Shown here piece after piece: positions 48,694 through 50,511 of a stretch of DNA of 64,000 bases. The notes under the pieces are model-generated. The model did no database searches and was not told the origin of the DNA. It worked only from the letters and a program-made list of their open reading frames with translations. The position numbers and the translations under genes were made by a program. The stretch's first letter is position 1. Every line of letters starts with the position of its first letter. Source of the DNA: Gloeobacter morelensis MG652769 (GTDB lineage Bacteria; Cyanobacteriota; Cyanobacteriia; Gloeobacterales; Gloeobacteraceae); the NCBI RefSeq assembly GCF_021018745.1, contig NZ_CP063845.1, positions 372,001-436,000 of the forward strand, written 5' to 3'.

Positions 48694-49035
48694 ATGAACA
48701 GCAAAGCGTTTCAGGCGTCGGCACTGGCGTTGATTCTGGGAGTCGCGTTTGCCGGGGCAGCCAACGCCGATGTCACCCAGACGGCCGTGGGCATCCAGCA
48801 GAGCTACCAGTCGCAGTACCTGGAGGGCCGGGGCAACCAGACGGGCGTCAGCGTGAGCAACCTGGGCCAGTTCCAGATGGGCCGTCCGTCCTACCGGGGC
48901 GAAAACATTCAGCAGACCGCCGCCGGGGTGCAGATGACCGAGCAGGCCCAGCAGGGCTTCGGTCGCGTCAACCAGACGATGGTGGACGTGCGCGAGATGC
49001 GCCAGCGCCAGTTCAACCGCCTGCCGCGCCGTTAG
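48694..49035 (+). CDS. Small exported QTAVGxQ-repeat protein 1
   Basis: The 113-residue product starts MNSKAFQASALALILGVAFAGAANA, a signal peptide. The mature part is rich in Gln, Gly and Asn (DVTQTAVGIQQSYQSQ, GRGNQTGVSVSNLGQFQ, QQTAAGVQMTEQAQ) and basic at the end (RQFNRLPRR). The Q/G/N spacing is reminiscent of curlin repeats of amyloid fibres, though I cannot confirm this. It is the first of four tightly packed exported proteins. An RBS (AGGAG) is present. Confidence 0.72.
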   Translation: MNSKAFQASALALILGVAFAGAANADVTQTAVGIQQSYQSQYLEGRGNQTGVSVSNLGQFQMGRPSYRGENIQQTAAGVQMTEQAQQGFGRVNQTMVDVREMRQRQFNRLPRR

Positions 49036-49045
49036 GAGTGAACCT

Positions 49046-49402
49046 ATGAGACCCTTTACCTGGTCCATGGTCCTGGCGCTGGTGGTGGCCCTGCCGGGGG
49101 CGGCCAATGCGGGCACGATCGAAGTCGATCCGAGCGTGCAGACGGCCGTGGGCGTCCAAAACGCCCAGCAGGTCCAACTCGGCTTCGGGGTGCGCGAGCA
49201 AACGGGCACCATCGTCCAGCAGCAGCCCCAGTACCAGTTCAACTCCCGGCCCCGCCGCGGTCCCACCCGCTACAGCTACCCCGGCGGCGACGATATCCGC
49301 GTCGCTCCGGACGTCCAGACAGCTGTGGGCGTCCAAAACGCCCAGCAAGTCCAGCTGGGTCTACCCGGCTTTGGTCGCTATCGCGACCGCGACCGCAACT
49401 GA
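49046..49402 (+). CDS. Small exported QTAVGxQ-repeat protein 2
   Basis: The 118-residue product has a signal peptide (FTWSMVLALVVALPGAANA) and two nearly identical copies of VQTAVGVQNAQQVQLG (about 30-46 and 90-106), separated by a Gln/Pro/Arg stretch. The same QTAVG unit occurs in the preceding protein. It starts 10 bases after that gene's stop. The internal duplication is visible also at DNA level (CGTCCAAAACGCCCAGCA in both). Role unknown. Confidence 0.72.
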   Translation: MRPFTWSMVLALVVALPGAANAGTIEVDPSVQTAVGVQNAQQVQLGFGVREQTGTIVQQQPQYQFNSRPRRGPTRYSYPGGDDIRVAPDVQTAVGVQNAQQVQLGLPGFGRYRDRDRN

Positions 49403-49496
49403 CGCTCTGTCGCGTTTCCCTCTACGTGTTCGCCGGGGGCGGTGTTTTAGGGGGCACCGCTTCCCGGTCTGCAACCCATTTCTTTGGAGAATACCG

Positions 49497-49949
49497 ATGC
49501 TACGAACCCTCTGCCCGGTCCTTGCGGCGGGCCTGTTGCTGGTAGCCGTTGCCCCCGCCGCCCAGGCCGATCGGATTATTATTCCGGTTTTCCAGAGCCA
49601 GACGTCCATCATCCGCGGCACCCAGGCCCAGGGCGCCGGGAGCGGCTACGGCGGCTCAAGTCAGTCGGGCGCACTCAACCAGGCGAGCGGCCAGGCACAG
49701 ACGGTAAACGTCTACGTGCCGGAGGACTTCGACGGCAACGTGACCACCGTCGATCTGGGGGATCGCAACCGCCGCTTTGGCCGCGACGAGCGCTTCGGCC
49801 GTGACGACCGCTTCGAGCGCGAGCCCGGCGATTGGCGCGAGCGCTTCGAGCGCACCAAGCGCTTCGGCCGCGAACGCGACGATCTCGAACGCCCCGAGTT
49901 GCACCGCCGCGACGGGTGGAACAACCGCCGAGGTGAGCGCGATGGCTAG
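49497..49949 (+). CDS. Small exported protein with Arg/Asp-rich tail
   Basis: The 150-residue product has a signal peptide (MLRTLCPVLAAGLLLVAVAPAAQA) and a Ser/Gly/Gln stretch (QSQTSIIRGTQAQGAGSGYGGSSQ). Its C-terminal half is built of FGRDERFGRDDRFERE-like charged units. RBS GGAG precedes the ATG by 9 bases. The stop overlaps the start of the next gene by 8 bases. No family recognised. Confidence 0.68.
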   Translation: MLRTLCPVLAAGLLLVAVAPAAQADRIIIPVFQSQTSIIRGTQAQGAGSGYGGSSQSGALNQASGQAQTVNVYVPEDFDGNVTTVDLGDRNRRFGRDERFGRDDRFEREPGDWRERFERTKRFGRERDDLERPELHRRDGWNNRRGERDG

Positions 49950-50511
49950 AAACGGTTGGTTGGTAAGCCTACTGGCGGGGGGAATCCTGGGGACCGCCGG
50001 TGCGGCTGACGCCCAGGTATCGGTGCAGGTGAACGGCACCGACGTGCAGGTCCAGACCGGCACCAGTGCGGTCTCAGTCAATGGCGGCCGGGTCTACACC
50101 GACGGCCACGGCACATCCGGCACGACCCTCCAGCGAAGCTACCAGTATCAAGATTCCGACGGCTACAGCGAGTGGAGCCTCGCGGGCGGCGGGCCAGGCC
50201 GCTACTATCTGGTGGTGCAGGCTCCTCAGGGGCAACTCCTCAGGGGCCGGGTGCGCCTGAACGGCCGGACGTTGGCAAATCTGAACAACCGCAGCAGTCT
50301 GGTATTGCCCCTAGCGGGCTGGTTGCGCCACGGTCCTAACCGCCTTGATCTGGATCTGGGTGTTTCCGGCGCCTCGGTGGGTCTCGCCGGGGCGGCGGGG
50401 GGGAGATCGCCCTACTTCCGGGGCGGCAGGCTCTACGGCTCCCAGCGCACCTGGCTGCAACAGAGTGGCGGTGGCCGGTACCGGACGATCGTGCTCACGC
50501 TGGACGACTAG
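49942..50511 (+). CDS. Exported beta-rich protein at the end of the repeat-protein cluster
   Basis: The 189-residue product has a signal peptide (WLVSLLAGGILGTAGAADA) and a beta-rich, Gly-rich mature part (VSVQVNGTDVQVQTGTSAVS, GRYYLVVQAPQGQLLRG, GPNRLDLDLGVSG). It lacks the QTAVG unit of the first two but overlaps the preceding gene, so it belongs to the same transcription unit. No family recognised. Confidence 0.68.
   Translation: MARNGWLVSLLAGGILGTAGAADAQVSVQVNGTDVQVQTGTSAVSVNGGRVYTDGHGTSGTTLQRSYQYQDSDGYSEWSLAGGGPGRYYLVVQAPQGQLLRGRVRLNGRTLANLNNRSSLVLPLAGWLRHGPNRLDLDLGVSGASVGLAGAAGGRSPYFRGGRLYGSQRTWLQQSGGGRYRTIVLTLDD

Follow-up and report, generated by a model that had tools for sequence, protein, structure and literature searches.

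Four adjacent genes on the forward strand of a 64-kb Gloeobacter window (the whole stretch of DNA analysed, which lies within a 4.92-Mb contig of genome G000) constitute a real, conserved and previously undescribed cyanobacterial system of exported repeat proteins, here termed F1–F4. We favour the reading, with a probability of roughly 0.5, that they specify a curli-like fibre system, consisting of β-arch subunits and a β-sandwich partner, that is not curli itself. No description of the cluster was found in the openly licensed literature, and neither F1–F4 nor those of their relatives that were scanned fall within a Pfam, NCBIfam or PDB family.

The four co-directional open reading frames span positions 48694–50511 and encode proteins of 113–189 amino acids. 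F1 and F2 are separated by 10 bp, F2 and F3 by 94 bp, whereas F3 and F4 overlap by 8 bp, and a GGAG, AGGAG or GAGG ribosome site precedes each start. The N terminus of each of the four proteins is a hydrophobic segment with A-x-A at its end, which was called as a signal peptide by eye from the sequence rather than with a dedicated predictor, and from which export is predicted. The layout thus agrees with the earlier note, which had described four signal-peptide proteins in one unit with gaps or overlaps of less than 100 bases. The clean terminator placed upstream of the unit by the same note holds in part: a hairpin followed by T8 is present and plausibly acts as a terminator, but its folding energy (–18.7 kcal/mol) is no better than that of shuffled sequences (z –0.74), and it was not listed by a terminator pattern scan with a loop limit of 8.

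About 48487..48527, forward strand: hairpin then T8, which may terminate the upstream phosphodiesterase gene (sequence)
48694..49035, forward strand: F1, predicted exported repeat protein of 113 aa with two units and a glutamine ladder, homologous to F1-type proteins of other cyanobacteria (open reading frame)
49046..49402, forward strand: F2, predicted exported repeat protein of 118 aa in which the half-unit Q-x5-Q-x3-Q-x-Q occurs three times (open reading frame, alignment)
49497..49949, forward strand: F3, predicted exported protein, 150 aa, with one Q-x5-Q-x3-Q-x-Q half-unit, after which come conserved V-N-x-Y-x-P residues and a charged tail specific to the lineage (open reading frame, alignment)
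49942..50511, forward strand: F4, predicted exported protein, 189 aa, with a short β-repeat N-terminal part and a C-terminal β-sandwich (open reading frame, alignment, AlphaFold2)

Directly upstream and on the same strand (window 43741–48471) are genes for two histidine kinases, for a response regulator of the LuxR type and for an exported type I phosphodiesterase. The kinases and the LuxR-type regulator adjoin F1 in the genus Gloeobacter only and were therefore rejected as a conserved regulator of the cluster; the phosphodiesterase gene adjoins F1 in the genus and in G004, and no farther. On the other side, a Uma2-family (putative endonuclease) gene at 50546–51271 begins 34 bp past F4, and a second Uma2-like open reading frame was recognised by eye at about 54000–54593. 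A transposase-like open reading frame, likewise assigned by eye, occupies 53014–53808 amid short open reading frames, and between it and the cluster lies a seemingly exported 222-aa open reading frame with no family assigned (51941–52609).

Conservation of the cluster in relatives is borne out well beyond the genus. All six Gloeobacteraceae genomes that were found (G000–G005) share the order F1-F2-F3-F4, with F4 shortened to 102 aa in G004, as do two genomes from remote cyanobacterial families (G027 and G062), the latter of which adds an F3 paralogue of two long repeats. A genome from another family of the same order (G006) retains F1-F2-F3 on a contig that ends where F4 would lie, while F1–F4 are missing from G007 and G008, which represent a third family of that order. 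A near-identical locus is present in Aphanocapsa lilacina HA4352-LM1 and a 53% identical one in Gloeobacterales ES-bin-141. The dN/dS ratios of F1–F4 are 0.08–0.20 against the closest relatives and 0.29–0.41 against G003, and these low values show purifying selection on all four genes. In G027 there is, in addition, a second, diverged cluster (L065) of F1-like, F2-like and F4-like genes, followed directly downstream by a TolC-type outer-membrane gene (L065:6835-8835) that is a candidate export route.

F1 is built from a 45-residue unit present twice behind the signal peptide.

48694..48768, forward strand: F1 signal peptide, residues 1–25, ending A-N-A before D (A23, A25 and D26 invariant in 10 homologues)
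48778..48876, forward strand: F1 unit 1, residues 29–61, with Q29 Q35 Q39 Q41 G45 G47 Q49 Q59 (alignment of homologues)
48913..49011, forward strand: F1 unit 2, residues 74–106, with Q74 Q80 Q84 Q86 G90 Q94 Q104 in the spacing of unit 1 (alignment of homologues)

Across 10 homologues, the conserved glutamines of F1 (29, 35, 39, 41, 49 and 59, then 74, 80, 84, 86, 94 and 104) follow the spacing 6-4-2-8-10 in both copies. The short gaps between them are even in 10 of 10 cases, a count equalled in 6 of 20,000 random placements of the conserved glutamines, and in an extended strand even gaps would bring all of these residues onto the same face. Alternate residues accordingly read Q-A-G-Q-S-Q for one face and T-V-I for the opposite one, the pattern of a β-strand and not of a helix. 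Each unit also contains the motif Q-x3-Q-x5-G-x2-N (Q35, Q39, G45 and N48; Q80, Q84, G90 and N93), for which the occurrence of two copies has a shuffle P of 1.5e-4, the motif having been picked after the family had been seen. The AlphaFold2 model of F1 places strands at residues 27–44, 49–62, 72–89 and 94–107, flanking both G-x-x-N turns; it is of very low confidence (pLDDT 49, pTM 0.20), so the predicted strands agree with the glutamine alternation but fall short of proof.

The same glutamine pattern recurs, in shorter form, in the next two proteins.

49139..49177, forward strand: F2 half-unit 1, residues 32–44, QTAVGVQNAQQVQ (conserved Gln)
49199..49237, forward strand: F2 half-unit 2, residues 52–64 (conserved Gln)
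49316..49354, forward strand: F2 half-unit 3, residues 91–103, QTAVGVQNAQQVQ (conserved Gln)
49662..49700, forward strand: F3 half-unit, residues 56–68 (Q56, Q62, Q66 and Q68 invariant in 8 homologues)
49758..49946, forward strand: F3 charged tail with FGRDxRF units (no conservation beyond the G. violaceus clade)

In F2, the spacing 6-4-2 occurs three times among the conserved glutamines (32, 38, 42, 44, 52, 58, 62 and 64, then 91, 97, 101 and 103); the short gaps are again even in 10 of 10 cases, and 6 of 20,000 random placements equalled that count. Recurrent strand modules bearing a conserved polar ladder, a trait of functional amyloids, are therefore present in both F1 and F2. The QTAVG[IV]Q element that had been proposed as common to the two proteins and doubled in the second is found as QTAVGIQ once in F1 and as QTAVGVQ twice in F2, the second copy of the F1 duplication reading QTAAGVQ where the first has QTAVGIQ. 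The FGRDxRF units pointed out in F3 are present as well; they were rejected as a functional repeat because they, like the charged tail that contains them, are confined to the G. violaceus clade.

These patterns bear on the possibility that the proteins are soluble or disordered glutamine-rich envelope components, periplasmic or bound to exopolysaccharide, that build no ordered fibres. Their small size and Q/N/G/R-rich composition would suit such a role, as would the fact that AlphaFold2 models both F1 and the N-terminal part of F4 with low confidence. A strict two-residue glutamine alternation combined with an exact duplication would, however, be unexpected of disordered linkers, and the alternation in F1 argues against plain disorder. 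We consider this explanation quite unlikely. The earlier note had held that disorder without β structure would speak against its proposal, and the evidence mostly points away from disorder, with the strict alternation joined by the confident β domain of F4 described below, although the strands of F1 are modelled at a pLDDT of only 49. The other two observations that the note had set as refuting it, a cluster not conserved in relatives and a lack of export, are countered by the shared gene order and by the signal peptides of all four proteins.

F4 appears to combine two parts of different distribution.

50014..50106, forward strand: F4 N-terminal part, residues 25–55, VSVQVNGTDVQVQTGTSAVSVNGG (in several other cyanobacteria, a small exported protein of its own)
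50164..50508, forward strand: F4 C-terminal β-sandwich, residues 75–189 (found across Cyanobacteriia)

The N-terminal part corresponds to the separate small exported protein both in hmmsearch, with matches to model positions 1–86, and in hhalign (91%, E 1.1e-6, 27 columns), such that F4 of Gloeobacter resembles a fusion of what are two individual proteins in other lineages. We suggest on this basis that the two parts are functionally tied. In the AlphaFold2 model, block-mean pLDDT is 60–93 from residue 71 onwards and reaches 85–93 for residues 91–140, in line with the original description of F4 as β-rich. The C-terminal domain is best described as a predicted jelly-roll or Ig-like sandwich. 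While Foldseek gave no match at E<=0.001, VIA-align returned Z scores of 5–6 (up to about 6.0) with rows that include many sugar-binding domains of glycoside hydrolase family 2 (GH2) and Ig-like domains, and a sub-threshold Pfam match to Glyco_hydro_2_N (E 0.0033) was seen in 2 of 19 F4 homologues. The N-terminal jelly-roll domain of GH2 is thus the closest, albeit weak, resemblance in both fold and profile, at a level that does not establish kinship, and F4 differs from GH2 enzymes in having no catalytic domain.

This resemblance is relevant to a second non-fibrous explanation, in which F1–F3 would form short β-solenoid or hairpin modules complexed with F4 to build a sheath, an S-layer or a polysaccharide-binding layer, instead of an open-ended cross-β fibre. 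The alternating glutamine face is equally suited to a solenoid, and the F4 domain looks most like, if weakly, the sugar-binding jelly-roll domains of GH2 enzymes; yet the F4–GH2 fold match lies below the level that signifies kinship, and the two units of F1 would be too short for a stable solenoid on their own. We regard such a non-amyloid scaffold as unlikely.

A more diverged form of the system is found across the Cyanobacteriia. The F4 profile detects the β domain in 49 of 390 genomes of this class, and F4 aligns with the family outside Gloeobacter at 99.3% (hhalign, E 7.5e-21). In 19 of the 20 F4 neighbourhoods that were read there is at least one small exported protein of a common Q-x3-Q-x5-G-x2-N family. 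Two or more copies of this motif occur in 27 of 615 open reading frames from 28 loci; two of these are F1 of G000 and of G027, and the other 25 are situated at F4 neighbourhoods of other cyanobacteria, where they comprise 24 small exported F1-type proteins and one larger exported protein. The larger one (368 aa, L107:5510-6616), encoded downstream of F4, bears four copies of the motif and is a possible larger subunit. F1 itself aligns with the F1-type family at 96% (hhalign, E 3.7e-9), with part of the score contributed by the signal peptide. PDB sequence searches run with F1 and with both the F1-type and F4 families returned nothing meaningful.

The two gene types are tightly linked. Scans of 373 genomes with the two profiles, F1-type and F4, found 44 and 39 carriers, and both genes in 30, of which 29 have F4 about 1 kb downstream of the F1-type gene (0.7–1.6 kb apart, same strand). 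About 16 of these 30 genomes are independent, the remainder (nearly half) having supplied seeds for the F1-type profile, and the Fisher P of 1e-25 for co-occurrence is overstated, as many genomes come from one genus. The diverged set typically comprises one to four F1-type proteins, an exported protein with two cysteines (a regular member, present in 17 loci), often the small protein corresponding to the N-terminal half of F4, another regular member, and then F4. Because this set recurs across Cyanobacteriia, its function is likely to be old in the phylum. Counterparts of F2 and F3 in the wider clusters were not detectable by profile comparison: F2 was rejected as a homologue of the F1-type family (hhalign 11%) and F3 as a homologue of the two-cysteine protein (hhalign 25% over 11 columns).

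Several other genes adjoin these clusters. In two distant cyanobacteria (L041:3890-7462 and L100:7105-10001), a sensor with a CHASE2 domain is encoded beside the cluster, along with a regulator and a small exported protein; the sensor and regulator are seen there in G027 and G312 only and represent a possible regulatory link. In six loci the cluster is flanked by a conserved exported protein that has a coiled tail and the pattern NTENDFG...NTLDASNVT...QPGR, and that matches no Pfam family.

L096:5516-6013, L097:3028-3597, L098:4076-4579, L099:2-463, L105:4225-4779 and L109:3994-4506: NTENDFG-type exported protein

Taken as a fibre system, the four genes would form one expression unit for a small envelope or extracellular structural system, with all four proteins probably exported by Sec. 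F1, F2 and, in part, F3 would provide strand modules of about 20 residues, with conserved glutamines on one face and mostly Val, Ile and Thr on the other. In F1, the G-x-G-N turn would join two modules into a β-arch, and such arches may stack into cross-β fibres held by glutamine ladders. F1 would then be the principal subunit and F2 a co-subunit or nucleator, with F3 contributing its charged tail. The β-sandwich of F4 could serve as a periplasmic chaperone or anchor the fibre to the wall or to exopolysaccharide, and the product may be a surface fibre or matrix, working in a curli-like manner without Csg machinery. What weighs against this reading is the poor model of F1, the capacity of Gly/Gln-rich sequence to stay disordered, a curlin profile that scores F1 and most of its relatives no higher than shuffles, and the confinement of profile-detectable F2 and F3 to the narrower clusters. 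In addition, no linked outer-membrane exporter was seen among the neighbouring genes examined, save the TolC-type gene at the second G027 cluster.

The overall design is similar to, but distinct from, that of curli in E. coli (CsgA/CsgB subunits, CsgC chaperone, CsgG/E/F export). Shared are small Sec-type subunits with strand-turn-strand repeats of about 20 residues, conserved glutamines and a G-x-x-N turn in the repeats, and a layout reminiscent of csgBAC, in which several subunit-like genes stand with a small β-sandwich protein in one unit. The consensus differs, being Q-x-G-x-x-N-x5-Q in curli and Q-x3-Q-x5-G-x2-N with Q-x5-Q-x3-Q-x-Q half-units in the F1 type. Thus, of the curlin-like Q/G/N spacing put forward earlier, the arrangement of strand, turn and strand in half-repeats stands, whereas recognisable homology is lacking. 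These likenesses are also what would favour a genuine curli system whose machinery has been lost or whose Csg homologues are distant. Against it, curlin PF07012 matches nothing in the Gloeobacter genome, F1–F4 or any homologue, and CsgG (PF03783) is missing from G000 and found in 4 of 20 carriers, always unlinked (on other contigs or at least 0.8 Mb away). The K-12 CsgA/CsgB repeat profile gives F1 –1.8 bits, a score reached by 137 of 200 shuffles, although 2 of 28 F1-type homologues (L107 and L111) beat all of their own shuffles. No CsgE or CsgF was seen among the neighbouring genes examined, and the searches run with F4 gave no match to a CsgC-kind chaperone. Curli membership was accordingly rejected on all three profiles, and we regard this alternative, already contradicted, as very improbable. 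The accessible part of a 2012 survey places curli systems in at least four phyla and names no cyanobacterial one (PMC3521004).

The only cyanobacterial set of amyloid matrix proteins found in the openly licensed literature is EbfG1–4 from Synechococcus elongatus PCC 7942, small secreted proteins encoded by one operon of four genes, of which EbfG1–3 form amyloid and build the biofilm matrix, as described in two reports (PMC9981879, PMC4997328). The likeness to F1–F4 lies in a four-gene set of small secreted cyanobacterial proteins. According to the same sources, EbfG proteins carry a double-glycine leader and exit through PteB/EbfE, in contrast to the Sec-type A-x-A signals of F1–F4, and inspection of the genes neighbouring F1–F4 showed no C39 transporter; EbfG is therefore probably a different class. 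Tentatively, and at less than even odds, we propose that F1–F4 represent a phylum-wide functional amyloid already present in the thylakoid-less Gloeobacter lineage, with Sec-exported β-arches bearing one-faced glutamine ladders and with F4 in place of the Csg machinery for export and assembly. The F4 domain and the Q-x3-Q-x5-G-x2-N unit serve as markers for locating the system where its genes carry no family name. Such a system would supply genes to test for sheath, biofilm and mat building in filamentous and mat-forming cyanobacteria. The cluster would then offer a new case of a curli-like design reached without Csg proteins and, beside EbfG, a second, Sec-dependent and much more widespread cyanobacterial system.
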